A program made the translations under genes and the position numbers. This document shows positions 20,184 to 50,370 of a stretch of DNA of 64,000 nucleotides, piece by piece; the first letter of the stretch is position 1, and every line of letters starts with the position of its first letter. This stretch comes from a virus, in IMG/VR virus record IMGVR_UViG_3300047509_000156, positions 42,482 through 106,481 of that record. One strand, given 5' to 3'. Below the pieces are notes generated by a model that saw only the letters and a program-made list of their open reading frames with translations, was not told where the DNA came from and searched no databases.

Positions 20184-20477
20184 TCACGAGACCTGCGGCA
20201 AGGGTCGGACGTGCCAGCGTCCCTTGACCTGGAAGCCCCAGAAGACGTTGGCGTCGTGCCATCCCTTCTGCCACTGCCGGTAACAGTGCCGGTCGTCGGC
20301 GTGACTGTAGGGGTTGTCCGACAGCCCCTTACCGGCGATGCGGTCGCTGGACCCGCGATTGAACGCTGTCGCCATCTGTTCGGTGAGCGTTTCCTTGTAC
20401 TCCTGTTTCAATCCGCCCCCCCGGTCATCCGAGGGGGAATTCTCGTCATAGCCTGGCATCTTCTCGTGGTCGATCAT
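20184..20477 (-). CDS. Ribosome modulation factor-like protein
   Basis: 97 aa. The C-terminal half shows the RMF/CrpP pattern: a G...AG.G...NPY segment followed by CYRQWQKGWHDAN. RMF dimerises and idles ribosomes. A phage form could slow host translation. The acidic N-terminus overlaps a GGATTGAAAC element (20405-20440). Family call by motif spacing, moderately sure. Confidence 0.65.
   Translation of the reverse strand: MIDHEKMPGYDENSPSDDRGGGLKQEYKETLTEQMATAFNRGSSDRIAGKGLSDNPYSHADDRHCYRQWQKGWHDANVFWGFQVKGRWHVRPLPQVS
20405..20440 (-). repeat. CRISPR-repeat-like solitary element
   Basis: On minus: a GGGGG...CCCCC-type hairpin followed by GCGGATTGAAACA. GTTTCAATCC is at 20405-20414 on plus. 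Lies within the coding region of the RMF-like gene. No second copy within 2 kb. Confidence 0.6.
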
Positions 20478-20740
20478 TCCTCTTCCTCCACTCGCTCCAC
20501 CTTGAATTCCGGTAGGCTGTCCACGTCGATCAGCCGCCGCATCGCCGCCCGCGCCTCACCAGCCGTCCACGCTTGGACGATGAAGTCGATCTCCGTTCCG
20601 GCCAGGCGCCACAGGGGAGTTGGTTTCTTGAGGTGGACGACGCGGGCACCTATTTCCTTGTTGATATTGGCAAACGCACGCCTCTTACTCTTGGCAGACT
20701 TCAGGGAGGCGATCTGTTCGCTGATGCTTACCCGGCGCAT
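20474..20740 (-). CDS. Hypothetical protein
   Basis: 88 aa. Basic helical N-terminus (KSAKSKRRAFANINKEIGAR) and an acidic tail of four Glu. Overlaps both neighbours slightly. No family recognised. Confidence 0.65.
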   Translation of the reverse strand: MRRVSISEQIASLKSAKSKRRAFANINKEIGARVVHLKKPTPLWRLAGTEIDFIVQAWTAGEARAAMRRLIDVDSLPEFKVERVEEEE

Positions 20741-21348
20741 ACTTCCTCCTCCGGATACTCGTTACCCCAGCCATCGAAACCCGATCGCCTCTTACGGGAG
20801 AATAGTTCCAGTCGCGGTTCTGGGCTGCACTTCTCGACCATCTCCATGAAGGAGTCTGGTTTGACGCTGTGCGGCAGGCGTTCGGAGAGAAATAGAGTTG
20901 GTATCGCCTCCTCGACTTCCAGACGAAGTTTTCCACGGACGGCGAATAGGCAATGTTCCGTGGCACTGCGGAACCAGTACCCCGTCTTGCACGACGGCTC
21001 GAAGGAAGCCTTGTCGGCCTTTCTTACCTTGCCCCAGGTGATGATCGTCTTGGGTTTGAATCCCCACGCCCTAGCGAGGTCGTGTGCTTCCTCCATGAAG
21101 GAGTTTGTCGTCCAAAGATAGAGGTGGGCGTCCTCCTGAACGAGAGACTGTACGCCCAGACGGATCAGATCGATCATGCTCATCGTCTCGTAGTGACTGC
21201 CAAGATCGGCCTGAATGATCTCTGCCGCCCTCCCCTCCTGGCTGCCCCTGCCGCCATTGCCGACGACGGCGCGTGGCGAGTGATAGGGCCACGGCGGGTC
21301 AGCCACGATGCAGCGGTAGTGCTTCGGAAGATCACTCAATTGTCGCAT
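20728..21348 (-). CDS. MT-A70 family adenine-N6 methyltransferase
   Basis: 206 aa. The catalytic DPPW is present (CIVADPPWPYHSP), followed by YLWTTNSFMEEA and GFKPKTIITWGK, the usual MT-A70 core. The SAM-binding end LELFSRKRRSGFDGWGNE is present. It probably methylates phage DNA to escape restriction. With the Dam-type gene at 23117 it makes two adenine methyltransferases in one operon. Confidence 0.9.
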   Translation of the reverse strand: MRQLSDLPKHYRCIVADPPWPYHSPRAVVGNGGRGSQEGRAAEIIQADLGSHYETMSMIDLIRLGVQSLVQEDAHLYLWTTNSFMEEAHDLARAWGFKPKTIITWGKVRKADKASFEPSCKTGYWFRSATEHCLFAVRGKLRLEVEEAIPTLFLSERLPHSVKPDSFMEMVEKCSPEPRLELFSRKRRSGFDGWGNEYPEEEVCAG

Positions 21349-21360
21349 TTCCGCTCCTTA

Positions 21361-21720
21361 TTAGATTTCCCAGAGAGTAACCACGATCTTGCCGCCCTTG
21401 CACACTTCCTTGCGGATGACATGTAGATCGTCGATATGTTCATCATCCTGATAAACTCCGGCCTTTTGCAGGGCGTCCAAAGTCGATTTGGCTAAGTTAT
21501 CGATATCGCGTCCTCGACGATCAGGAGGGAACACCTCGATAAGCACGCCGAGCCTGCCGTCCATTGGCTTCAGGCGAGCGATAACGCACATGATGCCGAC
21601 TGCTTCCCTGAACAGTTTACCTTCCTCGCTCACAAGAACCTTGATCCCCTTGGGGCAGGCTACATGGCGCCAGTAGTGGTTGACGCTTGGAGCGAAAGGG
21701 AGTTCGATTGTCTGCTTCAT
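21361..21720 (-). CDS. rusA: RusA-like Holliday junction resolvase
   Basis: 119 aa, normal for RusA. It begins with APSVNHYWR, shows RRGRDIDNLAKSTLDAL with the catalytic Asp pair, and ends with DDLHVIRKEVCKGGKIVVTL. RusA resolves branched DNA during recombination and packaging. The ATG at 21720 overlaps the stop of 21717-22061. It pairs functionally with the Rad52-like gene at 32360. Confidence 0.92.
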   Translation of the reverse strand: MKQTIELPFAPSVNHYWRHVACPKGIKVLVSEEGKLFREAVGIMCVIARLKPMDGRLGVLIEVFPPDRRGRDIDNLAKSTLDALQKAGVYQDDEHIDDLHVIRKEVCKGGKIVVTLWEI

Positions 21721-22061
21721 GTCGTCTCCTTGACCACCTCGTACTTTCTGCCGACCCTCTTGATGTACCCCGTAGCGATCAGCCCTCTGGCGCCGGCCAG
21801 ACAGGCGTAGACTCGCCGCGAGCAGGCTGAATCGCTCTCGGCTCCTATGAGTCCGAAATGCGTCTGGCTTTCTTCCCAGCAGGCCAGTATTAGCGTGGTG
21901 AGCGAGAAAGGTTGCTGGAGGTTTTCTGCCACACCGAGAAGCACCTCCACGGCTGATCCGGGTATGAGGATTTTCTTCTTGATGGCGTGTTTCTCGTCGT
22001 AGACGCGGTTCCACTCAGCCTCGTCGTGTGCCGCCAGTGCAGCAGGGGTGTCGTCGTTCAT
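21717..22061 (-). CDS. Hypothetical protein, winged-helix-like
   Basis: 114 aa. SLTTLILACWEESQTHFGL and a C-terminal ARGLIATGYIKRVGRKYEVV strand pair look like a winged-helix replication or regulatory domain common near RusA. ATGA coupling to rusA. The call is inferred from secondary structure. Confidence 0.6.
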   Translation of the reverse strand: MNDDTPAALAAHDEAEWNRVYDEKHAIKKKILIPGSAVEVLLGVAENLQQPFSLTTLILACWEESQTHFGLIGAESDSACSRRVYACLAGARGLIATGYIKRVGRKYEVVKETT

Positions 22062-22237
22062 TTATCTCTCCAAAGTCCCAAACGTCTCAGTTCTTCCTCG
22101 GCCTGCCGCGCCAGTTCCTCGATCCGCTCCTCGTGTCCTGGCGGATCGTGCAGGACGAGATCGCCGTGGTGGCGTCTCTGTCTCGTCTTGGTCATCGTCT
22201 CCGATGGCCGGCAGGCGTGAACGCTATTATTCTCCAT
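22058..22237 (-). CDS. Small helical protein
   Basis: 59 aa from an ATG at 22237 with GGAGGATTCTG upstream, overlapping the TGA of 22237-22653. Basic centre (TKTRQRRHHGD) and a C-terminal helix (EERIEELARQAEEELRRLGL). No family recognised. Confidence 0.6.
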   Translation of the reverse strand: MENNSVHACRPSETMTKTRQRRHHGDLVLHDPPGHEERIEELARQAEEELRRLGLWRDK

Positions 22238-22653
22238 CAGAATCCTCCGCCCTGCGAGATGTAACCGGCGACCTTCTCGGGCAACGGTTCCGGCTTCACA
22301 TCGGCCAAGTCCATGCGTCCGAGAAACTCGATGGCTAAAGCACGGACGCAAAATGAGTACACGCCCTTACACGTCTTGATCCAGGGATGTCCGCGTACCT
22401 GGCCGTCTGGTTTGCTCCAGGCTTCGAGGAACTTGCACACCAGTTTATCCAGCGGCGTGCCGTACTGGATCGCCGTCGAAAACAGGATGGCCCAGTCGTC
22501 GGCCACTAGGCGGATGTCACCGTTGCCGACGACGAGGAACACCTCCCCCAACTTGCCGTCCTCATAGAGGCCGCAAGTCAGAAACACGTCCGTGCCTCCG
22601 ATATCGACGGACCATGTGAAGGATTTGCGACGGTCGGGGAGTTTACGGTACAC
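22237..22653 (-). CDS. TSCPD-domain protein
   Basis: 138 aa. The features of TSCPD are visible: FLTCGLYEDGKLGEVFLVVG, then a GTPLDKLVCKFLEAW helix and a Pro-rich turn. TSCPD occurs at the end of B12-dependent ribonucleotide reductases and as a stand-alone phage and bacterial domain. It probably binds metal or nucleotide. No reductase gene is in this window. Confidence 0.75.
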   Translation of the reverse strand: MYRKLPDRRKSFTWSVDIGGTDVFLTCGLYEDGKLGEVFLVVGNGDIRLVADDWAILFSTAIQYGTPLDKLVCKFLEAWSKPDGQVRGHPWIKTCKGVYSFCVRALAIEFLGRMDLADVKPEPLPEKVAGYISQGGGF

Positions 22654-22945
22654 CTTGCATCTCCTTGGATTCTCTCTGTCTTTGAATCGTCACCGCACGC
22701 CACATGGCTTCCAGAGTTTCGTGGAGATCCTTCATCTGATCGGCCTTGCCGCGAACGCCGGCACAGAGCATCTTCTTGATGGCGTGCTGCCGCGCCGGGC
22801 AGGTTATTCCGAACGCCTCCAGTACGCAGTACACGTCAACGAGGATAGGCTTGCCGTTGTCGTCTGCCGGGTGGATCAGACGGAGATACTTGGAGCCGCT
22901 GTGGCTCTGTATTGGCCTCTCGTAAATAGACGGGTCTTTTTTCAT
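22643..22945 (-). CDS. Conserved phage protein, unknown function
   Basis: 100 aa from an ATG at 22945. VLEAFGITCPARQHAIKKML followed by a KADQMKDLHETLEAMWRA helix is a pattern seen repeatedly in phages near replication genes. No enzymatic motif. It follows the intergenic stretch with two CRISPR-repeat-like elements. Confidence 0.75.
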   Translation of the reverse strand: MKKDPSIYERPIQSHSGSKYLRLIHPADDNGKPILVDVYCVLEAFGITCPARQHAIKKMLCAGVRGKADQMKDLHETLEAMWRAVTIQRQRESKEMQGVP

Positions 22946-22991
22946 GGTTGTTTCCCAGGCAGCCGGCGGTTCTCCTTGCCCACTATCTCCA

Positions 22992-23030
22992 GTTTCAATC
23001 CACAGCCAGCCCAGCGGCCGGCTGCACCGT
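22992..23030 (-). repeat. CRISPR-repeat-like solitary element
   Basis: GTTTCAATCC (22992-23001 on plus). The adjacent CAGCC-A-GCC, loop CAGC, GGC-C-GGCTG forms an 8-bp hairpin with one mismatch. On minus this reads hairpin, GTGGATTGAAAC. Lies in the 170-bp gap before 22643-22945. Confidence 0.65.
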
Positions 23031-23054
23031 CTCATCAGTCCGATCAGATTGGTG

Positions 23055-23092
23055 GTTTCAATCCACGCCTAACCCACATGGCCAGGCGCACG
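23055..23092 (-). repeat. CRISPR-repeat-like solitary element
   Basis: GTTTCAATCCACGCC starts at 23055 on plus, with stem CGCCT / AGGCG. It is 63 nt from the element at 22992, close to a CRISPR repeat-spacer period, but the two hairpins differ, so this is not a normal array. Confidence 0.65.
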
Positions 23093-23116
23093 ATTCCGCC
23101 GGCTGCCTGTTGATCG

Positions 23117-23962
23117 TCAGTGGTCGCGAACCCACACTGTCTCGACCATGCGCCTCTTGGATTCTCCCGATGCGGCGTTGTTCGGCAGCGTCCATTCCTG
23201 CTGCGTTGTGTGCTTGTTCAGCATCCGGTCGTAGAGGTCGTTGCGGTATCCCGAGAGGATAAACTTCGACTTACCGCGAAGCAACTGCTCCAGAAGCCTC
23301 TCGTGCTGTTCGACCGTCATCTCGTGCTGGTAGTCGTCCGTGCTGGCGCGGGTCTCGGGCATGTAGCTTGGATCTAGGTACAGGAGCGTGTTCTCGCCGT
23401 CCTGCTCGCGGCACACGTCGATGCCGTCGTGGTTGAGGATGACGACTCTCTTCAAACGGGCGTGGACCTCTGGAAGTCCCTCGATGCACGTCAGCCACGC
23501 GGATGCCTGCTCGTTCTGTCCACGGCGTGTCCTGTTCCGCGACAGTGGGGCGAAGTGTTTCATTCGCCCAGCGAGCGATTGGCGGCAGCAGATAAAGAAA
23601 CTACAGGCGCGGAGAACACAGGCTGCTGTTCCTTGCGTGGTGATTTCGCTGGAATCTGGAACACCTTTCCACCCGATATTCCTCAGAATTCCGGCGGAAA
23701 CAGTCCACTCGAACTCGCTAAACGGTGTCGCTTCGATGACACGGAAGAACGCCTCGAACGTATGCGGGTGACGGATAACAGTCCAGAAGTTTGTCAGGTG
23801 GCGGTAGAGGTCGTTCGCAACCTCGCTGACACCTTCCGGGTTCTTGGCGAGCAGGACAGACAATCCGCCAGCGAACGGCTCGACGTAGTGCAGGTGCGGT
23901 ATCGAGTCGGTAATCTCGACGATCCTGGCGGCAAGGTATGATTTTCCGCCATTCAGTGCCAC
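23117..23962 (-). CDS. Dam-type DNA adenine methyltransferase (D12 class)
   Basis: 281 aa from a GTG at 23962. Motif I is seen as MALNGGKSYLAARIVEI with YVEPFAGGLSVLLAKNP; the catalytic motif IV is DPSYMPETR. Spacing and length fit Dam/DpnM enzymes. It modifies adenine, probably in GATC-like sites, shielding phage DNA. It slightly overlaps the stop of 23953-24255. Confidence 0.9.
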   Translation of the reverse strand: MALNGGKSYLAARIVEITDSIPHLHYVEPFAGGLSVLLAKNPEGVSEVANDLYRHLTNFWTVIRHPHTFEAFFRVIEATPFSEFEWTVSAGILRNIGWKGVPDSSEITTQGTAACVLRACSFFICCRQSLAGRMKHFAPLSRNRTRRGQNEQASAWLTCIEGLPEVHARLKRVVILNHDGIDVCREQDGENTLLYLDPSYMPETRASTDDYQHEMTVEQHERLLEQLLRGKSKFILSGYRNDLYDRMLNKHTTQQEWTLPNNAASGESKRRMVETVWVRDH

Positions 23963-24255
23963 TTCAAACAGGACGGCACAGGCCGAAACGTCGAAGCGGC
24001 ATTCCTCCTTTCACTGGTCATCTTGTCCCTCCTTTCCCGGTACTTCTCCAGGCATGGCTTGCACACCAGTCCGTAGCGCCAGATCCACCAAGCATCATCC
24101 AGAGGCTCGATCACCTCTTCGCATGTCCGACATGGGTACGCCTTGGTGACGAGGATCTTCTGGGCGCTACGCCGCGCAGGCAGACGCTCGACGGATGCGA
24201 GTTTGCCATGTTCGTCGCGATACTCTCTGTATTCAGGAGCCTGTTCCACACTCAT
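23953..24255 (-). CDS. Zinc-binding protein
   Basis: 100 aa from an ATG at 24255 with GGGAACTCCG upstream. CRTCEEV and CKPC form a zinc site flanked by Trp/Tyr. The C-terminal part is basic. Overlaps 24233-24715 by 23 nt. Confidence 0.65.
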   Translation of the reverse strand: MSVEQAPEYREYRDEHGKLASVERLPARRSAQKILVTKAYPCRTCEEVIEPLDDAWWIWRYGLVCKPCLEKYRERRDKMTSERRNAASTFRPVPSCLKWH

Positions 24256-24715
24256 CGGAGTTCCCTCCGTCGCGCCACTCGCAGAAAAAGCGCCATAGTT
24301 TACGCTGCATCCGCTCGATACTGCTGTCCTCGGCGGTGAAGCAGTGCCCGCAGGGAAGCACCGCCTTGCCCTCATGGCGTTGTTCCGGTGTCGCGTGATA
24401 GATCGAGGAGAAGTTCGTTCCGTCTGGCCATCTGAATGATTCTTCCGGCGCGGGGCGGTTTTGCCGCTCGACGAGCATCTTGGCCTTCCGCGCCTCAGCA
24501 CGCGCCTTGCGCTTCTCCTGCCGGCAACTGCCGCAATCCTCCTGGGCATAGGAGGCGACCGGGCGAACATGACCGCACTTGAATGCCACGTTCTCCGTCA
24601 GTTTGACGTGACACTTCGGCACCGGCAGGTCGTTGGAGATCTGCGGCTTGTCGGCCACGATGAGTCCCTTGGCCGCTTGTTTACTTCGCATTCGTTCGAG
24701 TCGATCCCCCATCAT
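24233..24715 (-). CDS. Zinc-ribbon protein with charged linker
   Basis: 160 aa from an ATG at 24715 preceded by GTGGAGGAA. FKCGHVRPV and CGSCRQEK, then LPCGHCF, give a possible paired zinc site around a long basic helix (KRKARAEARKAKMLVERQ). Role unknown. Confidence 0.7.
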   Translation of the reverse strand: MMGDRLERMRSKQAAKGLIVADKPQISNDLPVPKCHVKLTENVAFKCGHVRPVASYAQEDCGSCRQEKRKARAEARKAKMLVERQNRPAPEESFRWPDGTNFSSIYHATPEQRHEGKAVLPCGHCFTAEDSSIERMQRKLWRFFCEWRDGGNSDECGTGS

Positions 24716-24742
24716 TTCCTCCACCAGAGTAGTTCGTGCCAG

Positions 24743-24847
24743 TCAGGAAACTGAGCGGCCTTCGTCCCCGACTTTGAAGCCTTCCAGAACCGCCTCGGCG
24801 CGCCGCCAGAGAAAGACCACCAACCATAAGGCAATCCGTTGCAACAT
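24743..24847 (-). CDS. Small membrane peptide candidate
   Basis: 34 aa from an ATG at 24847 with GGAGGTTTACG upstream. LQRIALWLVVFLWRRAEAV is one hydrophobic helix capped by arginines. It directly follows a CRISPR-repeat-like element. Too short for homology; supported by ribosome binding site and composition. Confidence 0.5.
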   Translation of the reverse strand: MLQRIALWLVVFLWRRAEAVLEGFKVGDEGRSVS

Positions 24848-25186
24848 CGTAAACCTCCATGAGTTTCAATCCACAGCCAATATTGCGACCGGACGCATCG
24901 GAAAAATCGCCCGCCGCCGGGTTGGACTGCAAACGACAAAGGTCTGGCGCCTCTCCAACGAGGATCGGCACTCCCAGCGGCGGGCGAAGTCACGTCTTAG
25001 GCTTATAAGTCTTCAGAGTGCCGTACACTCCACATCACCTAGCCTTTCCTTGTTTTGTGCTCGCCGGAGCATAGAAGAGAACCCCCAACCACGAGCGTCC
25101 TTTACCACCCTCCGGCGAGCCTGGCCTCTCGGGTGGCCTCGCGATGACCCGCGCCGGCAACGAGCCGGATAGTCTCCCGAGAAGGA
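24848..25186. other. Intergenic region with long inverted repeat
   Basis: No gene seen in 339 bp. It contains the element at 24863-24893 and an 11-bp perfect inverted repeat, GCTCGCCGGAG (25059-25069) and CTCCGGCGAGC (25110-25120), around 40 nt. Confidence 0.6.
24863..24893 (-). repeat. CRISPR-repeat-like solitary element
   Basis: On minus: GTCGC, palindrome CAATATTG, GCTGTGGATTGAAAC. It shares GGCTGTGGATTGAAACT with the element at 22992. Hairpin potential is weaker here. Confidence 0.6.
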
Positions 25187-25486: not shown

Positions 25487-25521
25487 GGTCCGTTCTCCGT
25501 TGTTTATGTCTTCCTCTGCAC

Positions 25522-25550
25522 TATATACGCTCCTGTCTCTTGCGTGTGAC
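25522..25550 (-). promoter_or_regulatory. Phage promoter family member
   Basis: On minus: GTCACA, 17 bp, TATATA. Serves 25187-25486. Confidence 0.85.
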
Positions 25551-25558
25551 AGGGAGAG

Positions 25559-25894: not shown

Positions 25895-28198
25895 CTAATC
25901 GGGGATTGGTTCGTCCGAGACGACGTAAACGTCTTCGTGTTGCGTTGGCGTACTGACCATTGACTGCGCCGCTCCCATAAGCGCCTTTTTGCGCTTGCCC
26001 TGCTGGGCAAGATGGTCCCAGCGCTCGCGGGGTAGGATGTTGTAGACGAGGGACAAATCAAGTCCGACAGCGTGCAGTTCATCCCTGTTTCTTGACTCGT
26101 TGATCCTTTTGAGACAATCGGCTTCAAAGACGGCAGGTTCCTTCCTGGCACCGATGACCAGGGAGGCGAGAAAACGCGACGATGCCTTGCTGGTGGCGAT
26201 GCCGAGATAGGCCATCAATTTGCATTGGCCGGGCGAAGGACCGCTCGCCTGCCAGGCATCCTCCTGAATGCCGCAGAGTGCAGCCACTCTGGCGGGGTCT
26301 GTCCGCAACCGCAAAAGTCCGATCATCCGGCCTGCCAATTTTCTGCTGGGCCGTGCCTCTAGTTTCATACCCAGCGAGTCGATGAATTTCATCTGACCAT
26401 CAGAGGCCAGGTTTGCCGGTGTTTCAAAAGGAGTGCTGTAGCCGATTTCGTTGACCGAGTAGCTGACCTCGGCGCCGGCACGGCTGCGCCGTTCAAACTC
26501 CTCGCGAGCCGCCTGTTCGGCTTCTTCGCGCTCAATACGGATACGCTCCTTGTCGACAGCATCCTGTCTCTTGGCCTCCTCGATGATTTCTTGAACGTCC
26601 ACAGAATCGTCCACGCCGGCAGCGGCGAGCAGCTTTTCCGCTTTCTCCTTGACCTCGTCCGGCAATCCCTCGGCGTAGATTTCAATGGTCGAAGCACAGT
26701 CGGCCAGGCCGGTTATGCCGACCAGATCGACGATGAGGGCGTTGGGCTTTTCGCTTGCCGCGATAGCCGCGCGCCGAGAGGTAGCGTCCGGGTACGTGTG
26801 TAGCTTCTTGGCGAGTGACCGCGCAGGTCGGCAGGCTCGTCCTTTCATTTGCTCGGCAAGAGAGGAGGCTTTTTTGCTGACGGGCCTGAGAACGGCGACA
26901 CAGGACACATCGGGGTCGTTGTAGCCCTCGCGACAAAGGCCGCAGACAGAGAGGAACTGAAACTGGCCGTTCTGGTGGCCTTCATAAACTTGCTTCCTCT
27001 CGTGGGGCGGCGAGGAGCCGTCGAGTTGTCGGGCGTTATCTCCCGACTTGGTGATACTTTCCTTTTCGATCATCTCGCCACACTTACAGACGGCGCCATC
27101 GCCGATCATGGCGGAGGGATACCATCGCGTCAGGCCACAGTCACAGCGAGCCTGGACGCGGGCGTTGATGTAGCGGGCGACGTTCTTCGACATTTCCACA
27201 CCGGGAGAAAAGATGAGCGTGCGCCGGTCTTCGACCAGATCGAGCAGCGGTTCCACCATTGCCGCCAGGTGTTCCTCCAGCGCTCTTTCCAGTGCCGCAT
27301 CGTCGTAGTCGCCATCAGTGCCAAAGAGTTCCGGGTTGCGAAAATCGACGCCGTCCACCTCGATGTAGCGCTGGATATAGGGCACAGCGTAGCCGTCCTT
27401 GACGGCACATCGTTTGACCGTACTGAAGAGGGGAAAGTCGATGGCGATGCCTGGGAATTGCTTGTGGCCGATGGACACTTGATCGAAGCGTTTGGGCGTT
27501 GCCGTCATGCCGAGGCGGCGATGGGAGGGGTTCTGGCTGAACCAGTCGGTAATGTGCCCCACCGAGGGTAATTTGTAGGCGTGCCGGTGTGCCTCGTCCC
27601 AGATGACCAGCCAGTCGAGTCGCCAGTCGAACTTATGCAGGCGGCTGACGATGTTGCCGCTCACTTCGGGCCGCTGCATCTTTTGCGTCATGTCTTCGAG
27701 GACGGCGGCGGTATCTCCTGCTTGCTCGATGTGCCGCAGATAGGTCTTGGCCATGCGTTTAGTCATGGCGCCAACCGAGGTGATGCCATACTTCGCCAAC
27801 TTGTCGAGTTGCTCTGGAGTGGGCGGTGATTCTCGCAAGAGGCTGGCGCGGCTGGCGACCACAATGCGCGGAACGTCGTCGTGGGGAACCTTTTCCGCCT
27901 CCATCTCGATGCCCGGCTCGATGCCGAGAAAGTCACGGATCTCCTGGGAAAACTGCCAGACAAGCTGTTTCTCGTAGGTGACGACGAAGATATGCGCCTT
28001 GTTGCTGCGGCGCATCCAGGTATCGCCAATGAGACAGGCGACGGGTGTTTTACCCGTGCCCGTGGCCATCCGCAACAGTACGCCTTCGATACCGCTGTCC
28101 CAGTGACGAAAAGCCACGTCGTGCGCTTCGGTCTGGTAGTCGCGCGGCGAGAGGCGAGTCGATTTGATGGACTTCTCAAACAGGTCTTGCTGTATCAC
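25895..28198 (-). CDS. SF2 DNA helicase with C-terminal zinc and helical regions
   Basis: 767 aa from a GTG at 28198 that shares a base with the TAG stop of the ParB-like gene. Walker A is MATGTGKTPVACLIG, Walker B is WLVIWDEAHRHAYK, motif III is LGMTATPKR, and CxC-type zinc ligands (CDCGLTRW, CKCGEM) interrupt the second RecA domain. Motifs V and VI follow (QFLSVCGLCREGYNDPDVSC, EQMKGRACRPARS). The last 250 residues are helical and Glu/Arg-rich. Similar to phage UvsW/RAD25-like enzymes that remodel replication forks. Confidence 0.9.
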   Translation of the reverse strand: MIQQDLFEKSIKSTRLSPRDYQTEAHDVAFRHWDSGIEGVLLRMATGTGKTPVACLIGDTWMRRSNKAHIFVVTYEKQLVWQFSQEIRDFLGIEPGIEMEAEKVPHDDVPRIVVASRASLLRESPPTPEQLDKLAKYGITSVGAMTKRMAKTYLRHIEQAGDTAAVLEDMTQKMQRPEVSGNIVSRLHKFDWRLDWLVIWDEAHRHAYKLPSVGHITDWFSQNPSHRRLGMTATPKRFDQVSIGHKQFPGIAIDFPLFSTVKRCAVKDGYAVPYIQRYIEVDGVDFRNPELFGTDGDYDDAALERALEEHLAAMVEPLLDLVEDRRTLIFSPGVEMSKNVARYINARVQARCDCGLTRWYPSAMIGDGAVCKCGEMIEKESITKSGDNARQLDGSSPPHERKQVYEGHQNGQFQFLSVCGLCREGYNDPDVSCVAVLRPVSKKASSLAEQMKGRACRPARSLAKKLHTYPDATSRRAAIAASEKPNALIVDLVGITGLADCASTIEIYAEGLPDEVKEKAEKLLAAAGVDDSVDVQEIIEEAKRQDAVDKERIRIEREEAEQAAREEFERRSRAGAEVSYSVNEIGYSTPFETPANLASDGQMKFIDSLGMKLEARPSRKLAGRMIGLLRLRTDPARVAALCGIQEDAWQASGPSPGQCKLMAYLGIATSKASSRFLASLVIGARKEPAVFEADCLKRINESRNRDELHAVGLDLSLVYNILPRERWDHLAQQGKRKKALMGAAQSMVSTPTQHEDVYVVSDEPIPD

Positions 28199-29238
28199 TA
28201 TTTGACCCCCATCTGATCGTAGGCGTAGCGCGTGACGCGGCCCGTCTTGTGGCATTGCTTGCAGCCTTCTCCCCGGCAGAGAGGACAGGCACAGTGGCAC
28301 TTGGCCGAGCGCACTGTCTCACAGACCGACTTGAGTTTGTTGATGGCGCTCTTGCGGCGGTCCATGTCAAGGAGCCAGGGATCGTCCGGCATCGTCTCGG
28401 TGAACTTCATGAGTTGCCGGCACCACGACTCCAGTTTACTGTTGAGCCGCTTGATCTGTTGTTCGGTCGTTTCATCTTCGGGCGCTTCCGGCTCCTGGTT
28501 CAAGTCTTCATCAGTCTGCTCGGATAGCGTCTTGCTCTTTTTTTTGCCGCTGCCCTTGCCGAGATTGCGCTTCCTTGCCTTTTTACGCTTGTCTTCACAG
28601 GAGGCACAACCGACCACGACGCCGTTCTTCTTACACTGCGGGCAGAGGATCGGTTTCCCACCACCGGAAATCTGAGCAATCGTCTGCCCTGACTGGCCGT
28701 TGAGGATGACGGAACGGGCGCCATCGCCTTGCTCGGCAGCGGCAGCATCGACGCCGGCAGCGAACTGAGTGGCGTTCTTGACTGTGCGCTCAGAAACGCC
28801 GTGCTCTGAGGCCAGTTCTGCCGCCGTTTTATTTCCTCCCTGTTGGGGAGGAATCGGGCAAAATTTGCCCGATTCCTCCCCAACAGGTGCGCTATTGCTA
28901 CTGCGCGTAAGTTCTCTCTCCTTACCGAGATAGTACAATTTTTGCTCTGGAGTCGCGTTTCGCCTTCCGAACTGGTTTTGGATAATCCAGAGCAATGCCG
29001 CTTCGCGTGAAGGTAGCTCGATTTTCCTTGTAGGAATTTTGAGATGCTTTTCCTCTGCAATATCGAACCGCGTGTGCCCGTCGCCAAGAATCGGTTCGTC
29101 TTCTCCTGGCAGTTGAAGGAGGACAAGCGGGTCGATGTGCTGGCTCTTTTCGATCTCAGCTTCCAGGGTGCTGCGCTCCTCTTTGGTCAGGGCGGGGAGA
29201 TAGGACTTGAACTCCTGATCGATCTTGAAGGATTGCAT
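28198..29238 (-). CDS. ParB-like protein with zinc motifs (first of two)
   Basis: 346 aa from an ATG at 29238 behind GAGGGCAAGAC. The N-terminal ParB/sulfiredoxin-like domain has PILGDGHTRFDIA and an HTH region with KTAAELASEHGVSERTVKNA. A zinc pair (CPQCKKNG, CASCEDK), a charged linker and a Cys-rich end (CHCACPLCRGEGCKQC) follow. It may act as a ParB-type nuclease or DNA binder next to the helicase. A structured leader (29274-29360) precedes it and matches the leader of 29410-30396. Confidence 0.8.
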   Translation of the reverse strand: MQSFKIDQEFKSYLPALTKEERSTLEAEIEKSQHIDPLVLLQLPGEDEPILGDGHTRFDIAEEKHLKIPTRKIELPSREAALLWIIQNQFGRRNATPEQKLYYLGKERELTRSSNSAPVGEESGKFCPIPPQQGGNKTAAELASEHGVSERTVKNATQFAAGVDAAAAEQGDGARSVILNGQSGQTIAQISGGGKPILCPQCKKNGVVVGCASCEDKRKKARKRNLGKGSGKKKSKTLSEQTDEDLNQEPEAPEDETTEQQIKRLNSKLESWCRQLMKFTETMPDDPWLLDMDRRKSAINKLKSVCETVRSAKCHCACPLCRGEGCKQCHKTGRVTRYAYDQMGVK

Positions 29239-42375: not shown

Positions 42376-43230
42376 GCTTCCTTCTCCAGTTGCGCTACCA
42401 CATCCAGTACCTGTTCGCGAGACAATTCCCAGCGGTCCTTGGGCAAGCCGTAGACTACCTTGAACTTGAACTCCTGGTAGAGCGCACAGGCTCGCTCGTC
42501 ATCGTTGAGGGCGTCGGCCAGGATCGCTAGGGCCAATTGAGAGGGGCCGCTCCCGGCGTAGCCCCATTCGTAGCCGGTTTGGCTGTGGTTGCGTAGATCG
42601 AGACGCGGCAGCAAGGCGTATCTGCGGTAAGCGTCCTCCACATCTATCATCACTCCATTACCGACGCGCAGGCCGTGGTAGCGTTCGGCTATGCGTACAT
42701 CCCACCACGCCAGACTGCCGGCCACGCTGATGTACTTTCCGTAGCCGGGCGAGAGGAGCATCTTGAAGATCGCATAGATAGCCGAGTAACCGAACAGCGT
42801 GATCGGCCGGCAGATTTCGCCGCGACGATTGGTCGTCAGTCTCTTCCGCGTACCTCTCTGGAGCGTGTGGCTTTCGTAGTCCGGCGTCCATCCAGGCACA
42901 GTGCGCCAGGATGGAGCGGTCAAAGCCAGGGGGGATGGGCGGCCATTCCGTGTAGGAGAGGGTGAACGCCGGTTTGCACTCGGGTTCCTCCAGCACCGCC
43001 AACCCCTGGGCATGGACCTTCTCCAGCCAGTCGCTGGCGATGACCAGATGAAGACGCTCGTGTGGCTCATACCTCTTCTCGCGGAAGTGATTCTGCCTCA
43101 ACTTGCTGGGTGAGCCGAAGAATAGCTCGATCTTCCAGTGCGGCGGGAAGAAGTGCAAGCCCTCGATCACCGTGAGGGTGTCGCGGTAGCGCTGGGCGAG
43201 GACGGATTGCTTGGCGGCGCGGGTGCTCAC
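42372..43230 (-). CDS. Frameshifted gene, DUF6166-like C-terminus
   Basis: The 5' part (43230 to about 42930, GTG start overlapping the upstream TGA) and the 3' part (to 42372) are in different frames. Both have good protein composition: QRYRDTLTVIEGLHFFPPHW in the first; YEWGYAGSGPSQLALAILAD with ALYQEFKFKVV in the second, a DUF6166-like ending. A G6 run at 42929-42934 lies at the likely shift. It could be a sequencing error, phase variation, programmed shift, or two overlapping genes. Confidence 0.55.
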
Positions 43231-44449: not shown

Positions 44450-44452
44450 GTG

Positions 44453-44937: not shown

Positions 44938-44952
44938 ATGGGTGATGGTTTG

Positions 44953-45771
44953 CTACGCCGTGGCGATAGAGAGCGGCTTCTCTTCACCGGGAATCGGGAA
45001 CAGTTCCTGGTCGGTCGTCACCAGTTTGGTGAGCCTCTTCTGCTCCAGAAAAGCGACGAGTGCCGCCTCAGCCTGGCGGTAAAGTTCTCGCCGCGACCCT
45101 GATTGTTCTGGTAGGACTTCAAGGACGAAGTTTCTCAGGAGGATCGCCGCCTCGTCACCGGGGACCATCATGCCACTCTGGAGAACTTCGCCGAAGCGTT
45201 CCAGCATCTTCTTCTTGGCCTTGCCGATGGCAGCGCGGACCACGACGGCGCGAATCGAAGAAGAAACGAACTTGCCGCTGGGAAGAATCTTGTGCGCCAG
45301 TGATACCTGCTCGCCGTAAGTCTGCATGAACTCGTCCACTTCCTTGTCTGAGATCGCACAGAATCCCTTCATGGCCGGGCCGTAGAGGAGTCTGCGAACA
45401 GTGGGGCCACAGCCGCGCGGCCAGTCCTTGTCGGCGATGCGGAAGTTGTCGTCCGTCGAACGTCTCTGGCAGCCGTCGAGAACGAGGAAAGAATCCTTGG
45501 GCAGGCCGTGCATGACGACCGAGTCGAAGGAGACGCCAGCTCGGGAGCAGGCAGTCAGTCGTTTCTTGCCGTTGATCAGGTTGTGGTCCACGCCGAAGGA
45601 GATGGCCTGGTCGGACAACTCCCATCGGCCGTTCTCCATGTCGGACTGGTACTGCGCCACCTTGCCCTCGTTGAGCCGGCGGTTGCGCGGATGGTCCCGC
45701 GTCAGCCAGTTCTCGGCCATCTGTGGGGTGATGGTCATGATCTCTACCGTTGGTTGCTGCCGTCGCGTCAT
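44953..45771 (-). CDS. ParB-like nuclease domain protein (third)
   Basis: 272 aa from an ATG at 45771 with AGGAGAACCCGCT upstream. The region WELSDQAISFGVDHNLINGK, KRLTACSRAGVSF resembles the ParB/Srx catalytic pocket (ING then RLTA). A helical C-terminus follows. It differs from the two at 28198 and 29410 and lacks zinc motifs. First gene after 45821-45849. Confidence 0.75.
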   Translation of the reverse strand: MTRRQQPTVEIMTITPQMAENWLTRDHPRNRRLNEGKVAQYQSDMENGRWELSDQAISFGVDHNLINGKKRLTACSRAGVSFDSVVMHGLPKDSFLVLDGCQRRSTDDNFRIADKDWPRGCGPTVRRLLYGPAMKGFCAISDKEVDEFMQTYGEQVSLAHKILPSGKFVSSSIRAVVVRAAIGKAKKKMLERFGEVLQSGMMVPGDEAAILLRNFVLEVLPEQSGSRRELYRQAEAALVAFLEQKRLTKLVTTDQELFPIPGEEKPLSIATA

Positions 45772-45820
45772 AGCGGGTTCTCCTGGGAAAAACGGTTGCC
45801 TTGTTCTCTCTCGACGTTAT

Positions 45821-45849
45821 ACTATACGCAGTTGTCTCCTTCTTGTGAC
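45821..45849 (-). promoter_or_regulatory. Phage promoter family member
   Basis: On minus: GTCACA, 17 bp, TATAGT, then GTCGAG. Divergent from the promoter at 45880. Confidence 0.85.
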
Positions 45850-45879
45850 AGAGAGATCGGTAGAATCCAGAGAATATCG

Positions 45880-45908
45880 GTCACAGTCCGGATGAATCGG
45901 CGTATATC
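45880..45908 (+). promoter_or_regulatory. Phage promoter family member
   Basis: GTCACA, 17 bp, TATATC, then GTGTCGCC at the expected start. The CRISPR-repeat-like element begins there. Confidence 0.85.
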
Positions 45909-45912
45909 AAGT

Positions 45913-45955
45913 GTCGCCATTTTCCCCCGGCCAAAATCCGGGGGCGGATTGAAAC
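45913..45955 (+). repeat. CRISPR-repeat-like element at a promoter start
   Basis: GTCGCC, then the 7-bp hairpin CCCCCGG / CCGGGGG, then CGGATTGAAAC (45945-45955). It would be the first transcribed segment from the promoter at 45880. This is the closest of the seven to a type I-C repeat layout. Confidence 0.7.
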
Positions 45956-45977
45956 AAGAGAGAAAGGACGGTGAAAC

Positions 45978-46584
45978 GTGGAGACGGCAGAACCCAAGGA
46001 ATCCTGGCGGATTGTCTGGCGAGCGGCGGCGGATTTGATCTCTCTGGAGGAACTGCAATTTATTCAGGTGACATTGGCGAGCGATGATCCGAGATGGGTC
46101 CAGGGCGCCACGACCAGTCCTCCCCCCTTTGCAGGCTGTGGCAGATTGGCCCGTGGAAGCCGCCTGTCTGTTCGGCCTATGTGGAGTGTTCAGCGGCGGC
46201 GGTTGGGGAGAGGCAATCGTCTCGGACACTGAGGATCGGTTTGCGAGACTCTGTTTCGACGTGGACCAGAAACTAGGCGAGCCTGCCGGCGTGAGATTTT
46301 TGCTCAACTGGCATGATGAGGCGCCCCGTGAGGAGGTCCGCCAGTCCTTACTCACAGAGATTACGGACGCCATCTCCTCCCGACTGTCCTCCCTCCGCGA
46401 CCGTCTCGCCAATCTGGGCGGGCAGCGTATCCTCGCCGAGGTGGAGTTGCAGGACTTCCTCGCGGAAGGTGACACGGGACTCTCGCCGGACCCGTCCCGT
46501 GGCAAGGCGGCACAGGAACGCCTCGACACCATCAACGCCGAGTACGCACAGGTGCGCGAGGAATACGCTAGGGCTACGGCGTGA
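45978..46584 (+). CDS. Frameshifted accessory gene
   Basis: Starts with GTG at 45978. The first frame (WRIVWRAAADLISLEELQFI) ends early. The natural continuation, DWPVEAACLFGLCGVFSGGG through a C-terminal coiled coil, is one frame over, joined at a C6 run (46122-46127). One fewer C would give a single protein of about 200 aa. Function unknown. Downstream of the promoter and repeat-like element. Confidence 0.55.
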
Positions 46585-46590
46585 ATTGTT

Positions 46591-46619
46591 GTCACAACTA
46601 CGAGAATATGCCGTATATC
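46591..46619 (+). promoter_or_regulatory. Phage promoter family member
   Basis: GTCACA, 17 bp, TATATC, then GTGTCGCCC. Starts the coupled run 46653-48973. Confidence 0.85.
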
Positions 46620-46652
46620 AGGGTGTCGCCCGGAAGCGTAAGGAGAAGAACC

Positions 46653-46925
46653 GTGAGCAAGAAGACAGCGAAAGGTGTTCGCTCAAAGGTAACTCTCTAC
46701 ATCGACAGCGGCGCCGTGCAGGTCTTTGCTGGACAGTTGCATCCCGCCGTGTTCACCGAGGAGGAAGCCTGCCGCATTCTCCTAGCGCATAAGGATCTCC
46801 TTGCCGCGTGTCGCAGCGCCCTGACACTCGTTGCCACAATGCAGAGTATGCCGCCGTCTGTGGATTGCATTGAGAGCGTTCTCGAGCAACTCGAATCCGC
46901 CATCGCCAAGGGAGAATCGCCGTGA
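46653..46925 (+). CDS. Hypothetical protein
   Basis: 90 aa from a GTG at 46653 behind AAGGAGAAGAACC. A beta start (KVTLYIDSGAVQVFAGQL) and helical end. First gene of an overlapping operon. Confidence 0.65.
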   Translation: MSKKTAKGVRSKVTLYIDSGAVQVFAGQLHPAVFTEEEACRILLAHKDLLAACRSALTLVATMQSMPPSVDCIESVLEQLESAIAKGESP

Positions 46926-47146
46926 TCCAGACTGTGAATAAACTTGTCGGCAAGATCGCCGCCCGTGCCGCCGAGTTGGCCAACATGAAAATCAACCGGC
47001 TCCGTCTGGAGGCACCAGCCTACGAGGAGAGCGTCGCTGCTCATTTGAGGATCGCCAAGTTGGATTTCCCTGACCGAGGAAGACTCATCGAGGCGATTCT
47101 TCTGGAGGAGTTCAGCGAGGAGTTTGATCGGAGTATTGATCCATGA
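46922..47146 (+). CDS. Hypothetical protein
   Basis: 74 aa from a GTG overlapping the preceding TGA. Helical, with an acidic end. No family recognised. Confidence 0.6.
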   Translation: MIQTVNKLVGKIAARAAELANMKINRLRLEAPAYEESVAAHLRIAKLDFPDRGRLIEAILLEEFSEEFDRSIDP

Positions 47147-47454
47147 CACCCACCACCCCCATCCGTGGCCTCCACGATGTCACGCGAATCGCCAGTGGCT
47201 ACGGCATCCCCTGGCAGGTCGCCCTGACGCCCGAATGTTTCGAGAGGTGTATTCGCGTCGGCGTCTTCTGGAGCAAAGAAGAGGACCGCCTCGCCGACGT
47301 GATTTACGCCCTTGCCGTCGCCCTGAGAAGCTGCCGCTGGTGCTGGCGTATCTACGTACCCTCGGGGACACGAGTTCCCGACGTGGTTAAACTGCGGGCA
47401 CGGCGGGAGGAGAATAACGAGGAAGTACGAATTATCGTGGACCTGGAGGAGTGA
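47143..47454 (+). CDS. Hypothetical protein
   Basis: 103 aa. ATGA coupling. It has RSCRWCWRIYVPSGT and a charged end. No family recognised. Confidence 0.6.
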   Translation: MTPTTPIRGLHDVTRIASGYGIPWQVALTPECFERCIRVGVFWSKEEDRLADVIYALAVALRSCRWCWRIYVPSGTRVPDVVKLRARREENNEEVRIIVDLEE

Positions 47455-47651
47455 TGAACAAATACGAACTGGCAGCCAAGATCGGCGATCTGGCTGAAGA
47501 GGCTGGAGAATCCTACGCCGCCGTTGTCCTGCTCGCCCTGGCCGGAGCGGTAATGATTGGACTGGAGAGAGAGTTGGCCGATGTTTGTGTTCTCGTCTCG
47601 CAGAGACAGAAGGATTTCTGCGACAGAAGTCTCAAGGCAAAGGATAACTAG
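47454..47651 (+). CDS. Small membrane or helical protein
   Basis: 65 aa from an ATG overlapping TGATG. A hydrophobic helix (YAAVVLLALAGAVMIGL) is flanked by charged helices. Possibly peripheral to the membrane. Confidence 0.55.
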   Translation: MNKYELAAKIGDLAEEAGESYAAVVLLALAGAVMIGLERELADVCVLVSQRQKDFCDRSLKAKDN

Positions 47652-47652
47652 C

Positions 47653-48141
47653 ATGGGAGACCGTAGCCGCTTCCGACTGTTCGCTCAACTGATCGCCGAG
47701 AGGTTCCCTGACCGCAAGGCGCGAATCGCCGACGTGGCCTGTGGCAAGGGGCAACTGCACAGTGAGTTGCACCTCCTGGGTTATCGCAACGTCGTCTCCT
47801 GGGACAAGCGGAAGAGGAACCTGCGGCGACTTTCAGTGGGATTCCGCTACGAGTGGTTCGACTACCGAAACGCTCCCAGGGGTTACGATCTGGTGGTTGG
47901 GATGCACCCCGACGAGGGCACGGACCACATAATCCTGTACGCCGCCAAGCACAAGGTTCCTTTCCTCGTCTGCCCCTGCTGTGTGCTTCCAAGTGCTGCG
48001 GAGTACGGCGGGCAGCGTGCCTGCTACACGGACTGGATGCGTCATCTCGTCGGTTTGGCACGTTCCCGAAGGATGACGACCGACACCGTATCTTTGCCGA
48101 TGGATGGACGAAAACAGGTAATCGTGGGAGGCTGTCGATGA
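47653..48141 (+). CDS. SAM-dependent methyltransferase-like protein
   Basis: 162 aa. RKARIADVACGKGQLHSELH, then YRNVVSWDKRKR, is a Rossmann SAM-binding motif. YDLVVGMHPDEGTDHIILYA forms the later strand and FLVCPCCVLP the end. Target unknown. It could modify a nucleobase or protein. Shorter than typical DNA methyltransferases. Confidence 0.7.
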   Translation: MGDRSRFRLFAQLIAERFPDRKARIADVACGKGQLHSELHLLGYRNVVSWDKRKRNLRRLSVGFRYEWFDYRNAPRGYDLVVGMHPDEGTDHIILYAAKHKVPFLVCPCCVLPSAAEYGGQRACYTDWMRHLVGLARSRRMTTDTVSLPMDGRKQVIVGGCR

Positions 48142-48473
48142 GCGTCATGAACCTGCGCTGGCGTTCCGATTCCAAGGTGGAACTGACCCTGTGCTGGCCG
48201 GACGGTCGCAGTTTCGTTACCGTTGCCACGAGAAACGGTGATCACATTGACATCGACACGCCTTATTTCCCCGACAAAGGCGACATCGATTCAGTCGAGG
48301 CGATACGCGACGTGACGCAGTGGTTGGCGCTGGGAGCCTGCTGTGCCCAGATGCTTGTCGGGTTCGACCACGCCACACTGGAAGATCTCGTCGCCGGCAG
48401 GAAGATGCTCCAGATTCCCAACCCGATCATCTCCATCACAATCGGGGTGGTGGACGCTGTGGAGGATAAGTAA
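48138..48473 (+). CDS. Hypothetical protein
   Basis: 111 aa from an ATG overlapping the methyltransferase stop. Beta-rich with a Cys pair (GACCAQM). No family recognised. Confidence 0.6.
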   Translation: MSVMNLRWRSDSKVELTLCWPDGRSFVTVATRNGDHIDIDTPYFPDKGDIDSVEAIRDVTQWLALGACCAQMLVGFDHATLEDLVAGRKMLQIPNPIISITIGVVDAVEDK

Positions 48474-48973
48474 TGTCAGAACGATTCATGACGCCCGAGA
48501 ACGGGCTTTGCTCCTTTTTGCCGAAACGAAACGATTTGAGGTATTTAAGAGTAAAAAAGGAGCAAAGCCCCGAGAACGCCGACGCCTTCGTGGATTTTCC
48601 GCCCGCCCGCAAGGAATGCCCGAATCATCTTCCCGATGGGAGGCTTTGTGCCCGCTGCCACGGTTTCGGCGGCTGGAACCTGGAATTGAACGCCTACCCG
48701 AAAACGAAGGAGCAAGAAGATGCGATCCGCGACAACCTTCGCAGGTGTCCGGTGACGAACCTGCCCGGTCCCGACATGACGAACGCCGAGTTCCGGCATC
48801 ACTATGTCCACTTCCGCGCCAGTTGCTCCAACTGCAACGGCTGGGGTTGGGTCAAGAAGGAACAGGGCGATCATGTCCACGAGTGGGTGGAGAGCCGCAA
48901 TGTGGGGAAATGCCTGAACGAGTACACCTGTAAGACGTGCGGTGAAAGGCAGACGGTGGATTCGTCGGACTAG
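48473..48973 (+). CDS. Zinc-binding protein with in-frame mobile insertion
   Basis: 166 aa. CARCHGFGGW and CSNCNGWGWV are paired CxxCxGxG-like zinc motifs; TCKTCGER ends the protein. Residues about 8-32 come from a 75-bp inserted element (48494-48578), kept in frame. Confidence 0.7.
   Translation: MSERFMTPENGLCSFLPKRNDLRYLRVKKEQSPENADAFVDFPPARKECPNHLPDGRLCARCHGFGGWNLELNAYPKTKEQEDAIRDNLRRCPVTNLPGPDMTNAEFRHHYVHFRASCSNCNGWGWVKKEQGDHVHEWVESRNVGKCLNEYTCKTCGERQTVDSSD
48494..48578 (+). mobile_element. MITE-like palindromic insertion with target-site duplication
   Basis: CCCGAGAACG occurs at 48494-48503 and again at 48569-48578. Between them, GGGCTTTGCTCCTTTTT and its exact 17-nt complement flank an A/T-rich centre. 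This is the structure of a miniature inverted-repeat element with a duplicated target. Net gain is 75 bp, which preserves the frame. Confidence 0.8.
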
Positions 48974-49356
48974 CGGATGGTATTGCGCCCGGCCTGCTGG
49001 TCGGGTGTGGATTGAAACGCCTGAAGCGCCATGATCTCCTGTTGCTTCCTCTCGATCTCCCTGGCCTTCTCCTCGCTCTTGCGGAGTTCCGCTGCCTCGA
49101 TGGCGGCGGCCAGGTCATCGGCACAGTGCCCGATCAGTGCCTTGGCCTGGTCGATCGACAGGGTGATCTCTTCGTGGGTCGCCGTGGGTGTCGGTCCGGA
49201 GTGGTGCATAAGAGGAGGAAGGGGCCGGCGGATCTTGATGGACGTACCGGAGGCGAGGATCAAGATGGCGTCGGGAGGGAGGGCTTTCTTGGCCATGTGG
49301 GACAACCTTACGGGTGGGGGCGGAATCGGCTCTGGGAGGCGGTAAACGTGGTTCAT
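48970..49356 (-). CDS. Hypothetical protein with coiled coil
   Basis: 128 aa. Starts at ATG 49356 overlapping the next stop. An N-terminal Pro-rich part, then a long coiled coil (AAELRKSEEKAREIERKQQE). Its 3' end overlaps a CRISPR-repeat-like element on the other strand. Confidence 0.6.
   Translation of the reverse strand: MNHVYRLPEPIPPPPVRLSHMAKKALPPDAILILASGTSIKIRRPLPPLMHHSGPTPTATHEEITLSIDQAKALIGHCADDLAAAIEAAELRKSEEKAREIERKQQEIMALQAFQSTPDQQAGRNTIR
48985..49018 (+). repeat. CRISPR-repeat-like solitary element
   Basis: CCCGGCC, TGCT loop, GGTCGGG (7 bp with one G-U), then TGTGGATTGAAAC (ends 49018). Antisense to the end of 48970-49356. Confidence 0.65.
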
Positions 49357-49553
49357 TCCTTCGGCTTCATGATGTCGGCGTACATGGACTTGGCGTCCTC
49401 GTTGAGGGAGTCGGCCAGTGACTTACCGCCCTCGGCGCGACGCTGCTCGGAGTATCCAATTGCAACTGCTTGTGCTTCTGGTTTTCCCGCCCGGCGTTCC
49501 GTGGCGATGTTCTCGGATCGTGCTTCGTCCGAAGGGGAATGGTTAAGCGGCAT
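49353..49553 (-). CDS. Small conserved phage protein
   Basis: 66 aa from an ATG at 49553. MPLNHSPSDEARSENIATER with GKPEAQAVAIGYSEQRR is a motif common in phage genomes (S-x-A-R-S-E-N-I, then KPxxQAVAIAYS). Function unknown. Overlaps the groES stop. Confidence 0.7.
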   Translation of the reverse strand: MPLNHSPSDEARSENIATERRAGKPEAQAVAIGYSEQRRAEGGKSLADSLNEDAKSMYADIMKPKE

Positions 49554-49902
49554 GGCTGGCTCCCTCTTTCTCTGGGGCGACGACGGCGAGCAGGTGGCTC
49601 TCCGGCATGATAACCAATGTTTTGCCGTTATGCTCAACCTCGGAGCCCTGGTAGCGCGGGTAAAGGACGGTGTCGCCGACCTTAACCGTCAGAGGGTAGC
49701 GGCCTTCCGTCGCGTATCGCGTCTGGGTCTTGGCGGAGAGCATCTCGGGCACTACGAGTCCTGGCCCAACAGCAACCACGGTGCCGCGCTGCGGCTTATC
49801 CTTGGCCGTATCAGGGATGTACAGACCGCTCTTGGTCCGGTCGGGTGCCTCCAGAGGATCGATGACAACGCGGTCGTTCAGAGGAGAGATCGGGTAACTC
49901 AT
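49543..49902 (-). CDS. groES: GroES-like co-chaperonin
   Basis: 119 aa. ISPLNDRVVIDPLEAPDRTK, SGLYIPDTAK, RGTVVAVGPG, VGDTVLYPRYQGSEVE and a final LVIMPESHLLAVV cover the whole Cpn10 fold including the mobile loop. It should cap GroEL and help fold the capsid or other phage proteins, like T4 gp31. The usual long insertion after GPG is slightly extended. Confidence 0.93.
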   Translation of the reverse strand: MSYPISPLNDRVVIDPLEAPDRTKSGLYIPDTAKDKPQRGTVVAVGPGLVVPEMLSAKTQTRYATEGRYPLTVKVGDTVLYPRYQGSEVEHNGKTLVIMPESHLLAVVAPEKEGASHAA

Positions 49903-49923
49903 GGAATTACTCCTGGTTTCGTG

Positions 49924-49952
49924 GTCACAGGTTACTACGAGTAGCGTATATG
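49924..49952 (+). promoter_or_regulatory. Phage promoter family member
   Basis: GTCACA, 17 bp, TATATG, then TCGTCGCCCG. Serves 49985-50370. Confidence 0.85.
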
Positions 49953-49984
49953 ACTCGTCGCCCGTCAGCAACACGGAGAGAAAG

Positions 49985-50370
49985 ATGAATCACATTGAAG
50001 CCTTGCGGAATCTCCAGCAGGAGACTGGGCACCCCGGTCACGAACTGGGTACGTTCCTGCTCCAGAACAGCAACTCGCTGCCTTACCTCGCGGAGCAGTT
50101 GAAGTTTCAATCCCCTCCTTCGCGGGGCACTTCTGCGGACTCAAGGAGAAGAACGATCTGGACGCACACCGCTGGCGCGATTACGAATTGGTGGAAGTCG
50201 GATGGATTAACGGCGTGAATCCGAAGACGGCCCGCTCGCTTGTTGAGGCCGGCGTTCTGGTCGAGGACATGCCTTTCGATATGGACGCGAACACCAACTC
50301 CCATGTTCGCCTACCACGGCTGGAAGAGGTGTATCCGAGAATCGGCAAGCCGCTGATCGATGTTCTTTGA
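49985..50370 (+). CDS. Frame-interrupted phage gene
   Basis: ATG at 49985 begins a coherent frame (MNHIEALRNLQQETGH, then NSLPYLAEQLKF). After about 50104 a different frame continues naturally (CGLKEKNDLDAHRWRDYELV, then KTARSLVEAGVLV) to 50370. The join coincides with a CRISPR-repeat-like element (50104-50130). Either a one-base error, or an insertion that broke the gene. Function unknown. Confidence 0.55.
50104..50130 (-). repeat. CRISPR-repeat-like solitary element
   Basis: GTTTCAATCC at 50104-50113, with CCCC tccttcgc GGGG, then CAC on plus. On minus it reads GTGCCCC, loop, GGGGATTGAAAC. Lies exactly at the frame switch in 49985-50370. Confidence 0.6.

Follow-up and report, generated by a model that had tools for sequence, protein, structure and literature searches.

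Why should a tailed phage carry, scattered through its genome, the terminal segment of a CRISPR (clustered regularly interspaced short palindromic repeats) repeat? The question is raised by a stretch of 64,000 nt, here called the window, covering positions 42,482 to 106,481 of virus record IMGVR_UViG_3300047509_000156; it is the final 64 kb of a 106,481-bp record that represents a tailed phage with an HK97-type capsid. The first-pass annotation, made from the sequence alone, had drawn attention to seven copies of GGATTGAAAC, the "handle" of many CRISPR repeats, and had suggested that they belong to CRISPR-repeat-like elements that trap Cas proteins. Our analysis identifies five, probably six, RNA elements that are type I-C CRISPR repeat units lying outside arrays, and they probably serve as dispersed RNA anti-CRISPR decoys for the host proteins Cas5c and Cas7.

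Handle copies and hairpins

All seven GGATTGAAAC sites proved correct in coordinate and strand, and their excess was confirmed against dinucleotide shuffles of the window, which contain a mean of 0.06 copies and in no case out of 100 reach seven. The remaining 42 kb of the record holds no copy, the reversed pattern gives 0 matches, and no Rfam family matches the elements. Six of the seven sites have a fixed geometry of stem, 1-nt linker and handle. They are listed here as 5' arm, loop, 3' arm, linker and handle, with the E-value given by the covariance model of type I-C repeats described below.

E1, 20405..20437, minus strand: CCCCCTCGG-ATGA-CCGGGGGGG-C-GGATTGAAAC; E = 4e-4, and 0 of 400 random segments as good in the stem-only test
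E2, 22992..23024, minus strand: CAGCCGGCC-GCTG-GGCTGGCTG-T-GGATTGAAAC, second half of a doublet; E = 3e-9
E3, 23055..23088, minus strand: CGCCTGGCC-ATGTG-GGTTAGGCG-T-GGATTGAAAC, first half of the doublet; E = 1e-3
E4, 24863..24895, minus strand: CGTCCGGTC-GCAA-TATTGGCTG-T-GGATTGAAAC, weak or degenerate, tentative; E = 0.064
E5, 45924..45955, plus strand: CCCCCGG-CCAAAAT-CCGGGGG-C-GGATTGAAAC; E = 6e-7
E6, 48986..49018, plus strand: CGCCCGGCC-TGCT-GGTCGGGTG-T-GGATTGAAAC; E = 7e-10
Seventh handle copy, 50104..50113, minus strand: GGATTGAAAC with neither a hairpin nor a stem resembling type I-C, not a member of the set; E = 2

Counting G-U pairs, the uninterrupted stem at the 1-nt linker is 9 bp long in E1, E2, E3 and E6, 7 bp in E5 and 6 bp in E4. 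Two stems are thereby longer than previously given: that of E6 has 9 bp, two of them G-U, in place of 7, and that of E2, formerly read as 8 bp with a mismatch, has 9 bp, one of them G-U. A randomly chosen position would have a stem as good with a probability of 0.001-0.004 in the case of each of E1, E2, E3, E5 and E6, and of 0.04 in that of E4. The statement that most copies follow a hairpin thus holds for six sites and fails for 50104, which we exclude from the set and whose handle is probably a chance occurrence. For E1, E2, E3, E5 and E6 a chance origin is rejected by the shuffles, the stem odds and the stem-only test described below; for E4, whose membership is tentative, it is unlikely.

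Nor do the units form a regular array, as the annotation had observed: six diverged units are spread over 29 kb on both strands, rather than standing near-identical at regular spacing as in a type I-C array. E1, E4, E5 and E6 have no neighboring repeat within about 100 bp. The observation needs amending for E2 and E3, whose 63-bp spacing makes them a doublet.

Resemblance to type I-C repeats

A scan of public genomes for the pattern C...CC, 4-nt loop, GG...G, Y and GGATTGAAAC returned 98 stretches, mostly CRISPR arrays with 37-nt repeats and spacers mostly of 34-36 nt. In the four arrays examined the adjoining genes are of type I-C, with Cas7c in all four, plus Cas8c, Cas5c or Cas1c; whole-genome searches place Cas5c in Singulisphaera, in one Planctomycetaceae metagenome-assembled genome (MAG) and in one Calditrichaeota MAG. 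A covariance model built from 26 genomic I-C repeats, with no phage sequences in its training, recovers E1 through E6 in the phage and nothing further that is convincing, at E-values from 7e-10 to 0.064 that are rough owing to a short calibration.

The repeats used for the model came from patterns that included the handle. Because the handle alone scores about 10 bits (10.5 for 50104), the 23 nt in front of it were tested separately. By this stem-only measure E1, E2, E3, E5 and E6 each resemble a genomic I-C repeat more closely than all 400 random phage segments do, while 7% of such segments do as well as E4 and 60% as well as 50104.

Individual stems have identifiable counterparts. The arrays of the planctomycete Singulisphaera GP187 carry GTCTCCCCCGGCCTCCGGGCCGGGGGCGGATTGAAAC and E5 carries CCCCCGGCCAAAATCCGGGGGCGGATTGAAAC, with both arms in common, so that a repeat from the suggested host group with matching stem and handle does exist. 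The 5' arm of E2 is shared with a Calditrichaeota repeat, and the nearest genomic repeat to E2 is in a Calditrichaeota I-C array (L062); the 5' arm of E6 is shared with repeats of Thiobacillus and Imhoffiella. The mimicry of CRISPR repeats originally proposed is therefore supported, and narrowed to type I-C, by cas-adjacent repeats of like geometry and by a model that finds all six units. The further suggestion that several host repeats are mimicked is plausible but unproven, there being two stem/linker classes.

Pairing and the caged doublet

The hairpins differ in sequence, as had been noted, and the stems of the six elements are well diverged. Aligned in the I-C frame, which was taken from the repeat model and not fitted to the pairs (except for one additional loop base in E3 and three in E5), they nevertheless pair in the standard way in 50 of 52 cells, a level reached by none of 2000 shuffles, even though seven of the nine stem positions vary, with exchanges among C-G, G-C, A-U and U-A. 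The wobbles in the phage stems comprise nine G-U and no A-C. Because pairing is kept in stems that differ, and because of this wobble asymmetry, the data indicate selection on the RNA of the handle strand, albeit from a small sample of six elements. A palindrome acting at the DNA level, as a protein-binding site would, is disfavored by the same nine to zero.

The E3-E2 doublet has a structure of its own.

Caged doublet, 22956..23109, minus strand: perfect 14-bp inverted repeat, 23096-23109 with 22956-22969 (100%), around E3 and E2

It lies between a D12 methyltransferase gene on one side and a gene for a 100-aa protein (22643-22945) on the other. None of 1000 random placements of such a cage reaches even 12 bp, and the doublet RNA folds with z = -7.59 relative to shuffles. 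The same check on five further doublets, of viral origin or from one planctomycete genome, turned up no cage.

A probable decoy function

Cas5c is said, in 2012 reports by Nam and by Garside, to cut at the hairpin base. In type I-C systems Cas5c processes the repeat, and Cas5c together with one Cas7 clamps the 5' handle, starting the assembly of Cascade (PMC7684278); RacrIC1, a phage-borne I-C repeat unit, restored the infectivity of a targeted phage (PMC10651486). It is the handle clamping and the inhibition of I-C by RacrIC1 that lead us to favor a decoy function here, of which transcription, Cas5c binding and CRISPR inhibition are the parts we infer. The units would be transcribed within phage mRNAs, in 5' leaders, as an intergenic doublet and at a 3' end. 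The host Cas5c would then bind each hairpin, cut its base and stay on the 11-nt (U/C)GGAUUGAAAC handle, where Cas5c and Cas7 would form dead-end complexes and leave the host with fewer working Cascades. Several copies would raise the dose and spread it over several transcription units, and the divergence of the stems would keep the copies from recombining with one another and may suit several types of host repeat.

Genomic surroundings

E2 through E5 are intergenic; E1 and E6 overlap predicted open reading frames (ORFs). E1 falls within the predicted ORF 20184-20477; should translation begin instead at an ATG further in, that start would be 29 nt downstream of the handle. From its sequence we take the product of this ORF to be RMF-like (ribosome modulation factor). 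Promoter prediction gave none near E1-E4. E5 is in the leader of a plus-strand operon, about 100 nt past a promoter-like site (45796-45823), and E6 follows the final gene (48473-48973) of the same operon, 12 nt past its stop codon and opposite the 3' end of the convergent ORF 48970-49296.

The earlier remark that no cas gene is visible agrees with our scan by PADLOC, Pfam and PHROGs, in which no type I cas proteins, those of type I-C included, came up among the phage proteins covered. The Cas12-like matches in the phage are two TnpB-type proteins (OrfB_IS605 / Cas12f1-like TNB), encoded in this one phage at 30682-31788 of the window (plus strand) and at 13111-14511 of L009 (minus strand). An origin of the elements as TnpB omega-RNAs is rejected, the two genes not being adjacent to them and the stems matching I-C repeats. 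The phage also encodes CsrA-like (19762-19947) and GroES-like (49543-49902) proteins, and at 28839-28887 it has a perfect 24-bp inverted repeat with a 1-nt center, inside the predicted ORF 28198-29238 and beside a ParB-like gene; this is possibly a partition or operator site.

Units in other viruses and in bacterial chromosomes

Single I-C-like units are common among the viral contigs scanned, and several contigs hold two to four units, solitary or as doublets, with differing stems (L270/L275, which are one 15.7-kb contig, L266, L271, L264, L274, L301, L302 and L019). On some of these the handle is extended by (GATTGAAAC)n or (AAAC)n before an ATG. Three related viral contigs have an identical unit at one site, before a gene that, from its protein, is presumably that of the small terminase subunit. 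A solitary unit at 764-800 (plus strand) of L024 stands directly upstream of the gene for a very acidic 60-aa protein, a possible anti-CRISPR protein partner.

Cellular genomes have such units too. The model finds matches in 25 of 149 genomes of Singulisphaera's class, several of them arrays. One genome of Singulisphaera's family, G058 (L188-L194, L250), carries some ten units, single or in pairs, among ordinary genes of the cell (FHA, RRM, PMT, FAD-oxidoreductase, LysR and desaturase), and one to four units each are found in G164 (L244-L246), G165 (L247), G152 (L248) and G126 (L249). Several lie directly ahead of a start codon: the gap from the end of the handle to the ATG is 4 nt in G152, 1 nt in G165 and 0 nt in G126. 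The genes concerned include an McsA-like one and, in G152, one that reads like elongation factor G. No match to Cas5c was found in G058, G152, G146 or G165, assemblies that may be incomplete.

Because solitary repeats occur in Isosphaeraceae-family chromosomes as well, several of them just upstream of start codons, the main rival to decoys is a cis-acting mRNA element. The hairpin and handle, placed in 5' leaders or between cistrons, would be a signal for processing or translation control, cut by Cas5c or another RNase or bound by a protein, and common to the phage and to these chromosomes, with any effect on CRISPR secondary. We regard this as possible, though unlikely. It would suit G058, with units among cellular genes and no Cas5c detected, as well as the positions of E5, 22 nt before a GTG start (45978), and of the caged doublet, which ends 10 nt before an ATG. 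Among 54 solitary viral and cellular units, moreover, a start codon lies within 30 nt 18 times on the handle side and 5 times on the reverse side (about 0.01 by a hand-calculated two-sided sign test), but the bias is moderate, since 19-21% of random positions also have an ATG-led frame that close. The genes downstream have no common function, E6 lies past a stop codon in a convergent region, and the exact handle of I-C arrays has been kept where a leader element could make do with other sequences.

A bolder combination of the two ideas seems to us quite improbable: the units would be a leader element shared by phages and Isosphaeraceae-family bacteria, with Cas5c or another RNase cutting mRNAs at hairpins just before start codons, so that the nuclease which processes CRISPR repeats would also regulate genes, and phages would both put it to use and titrate it; the caged doublet would be a specialized version of this RNA.

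That the units are neutral remnants, functionless repeats strewn about by recombination or by decay of arrays, is very unlikely. The weakness of E4 would agree with it, as would the dispersed chromosomal units, which include three A-C mismatches; the pairing in the phage, however, has been kept through changes on both sides of the stem, the cage is far beyond chance, and against the six units in 106 kb of phage, genomes of the class offer at most a few solitary ones across millions of bases.

Still less credible is a guide role for the E3-E2 doublet as a two-repeat gene, CreA-like or a viral mini-array, from which Cas5c would free a CRISPR RNA-like molecule whose guide is the 26-30 nt separating the repeats, so that host Cascade would repress or attack a target. 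The 63-bp spacing approaches the roughly 72 bp of genuine I-C arrays in the genomes scanned, and two diverged repeats around a short spacer are the usual creA architecture (PMC8501985), but seed matches next to a TTC protospacer-adjacent motif (PAM) are at chance level, no better than in shuffles either locally or phage-wide. A search of 50,697 phage records for the spacer came back empty, as did one of IMG/VR for an exact 18-nt match; nothing like the 14-bp cage appears in that description of creA, and the other four units would be left unexplained. Nor are there seed matches in the sequences downstream of the units, which fits decoys and not guides.

Several observations weigh against RNA anti-CRISPR decoys. 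E4 is weak, and E1 and E6 overlap predicted genes. The E1-E4 region has no nucleotide relatives among public phages, and the relatives reached through the capsid, helicase, methyltransferase and doublet-downstream proteins are distant and lack the elements. The 1,352 spacers from I-C arrays compared with the phage gave a best match of 18 of 35 nt and no convincing protospacer, and so no spacer link to a host. Finally, solitary units adjoin cellular genes in Isosphaeraceae-family chromosomes, and in four genomes of this sort no Cas5c could be detected, from which it follows that a decoy role is not the sole reason for carrying units of this kind.

Comparison with known systems

The closest likeness is to the Racr class of RNA anti-CRISPRs, of which type I-C members are known and one, RacrIC1, has been tested (PMC10651486): in both cases a phage bears units built like the repeat of one CRISPR subtype (stem, linker, handle), outside arrays and without cas genes. 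Members of the class lie between genes, often past a promoter. The present phage differs in having six units on both strands and in several operons, in the divergence of their stems with compensatory changes, in the doublet held within a 14-bp helix, and in the overlap of two units with predicted genes. The published Racr finder drops repeats within 100 bp of another and considers intergenic regions only (PMC10651486), and these two filters suggest that much of this set, and others like it, would escape it.

The E3-E2 doublet resembles CreA in being two diverged repeat units around a short spacer (PMC8501985). It differs in its cage helix, in the lack of an identified toxin gene and of a PAM-plus-seed target, which for CreA is typically the toxin promoter, and in the four further single units. 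With the viral CRISPR mini-arrays (reviewed in PMC11656645) it shares a short repeat-spacer-repeat in a virus without cas genes; mini-arrays are recognized by repeats identical to those of the host and by a spacer directed at a related virus, whereas E2 and E3 are unlike each other and their spacer has no phage or viral match.

The solitary I-C-like repeats of G058, G164, G165 and G126 (Isosphaeraceae family) and G152 (same class) have in common with the phage units the stem class C[C/T]CCCGG..CCGGG[G/A]G, the linker, the handle, the scatter and the doublets; they differ in occurring in cellular genomes, at far lower density and in some cases with no match to Cas5c. In the papers found, such chromosomal units are not described. 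Their presence in planctomycete-family chromosomes, several near start codons, raises the question of whether CRISPR processing nucleases also process cellular mRNAs. RNA anti-CRISPRs have so far been described as single repeat units, and while single RNA decoys are known, a scattered, sequence-varied set of six is new; six diverged but structurally conserved units in several operons suggest that the dose of decoys can be set and that ordinary mRNAs can house them.

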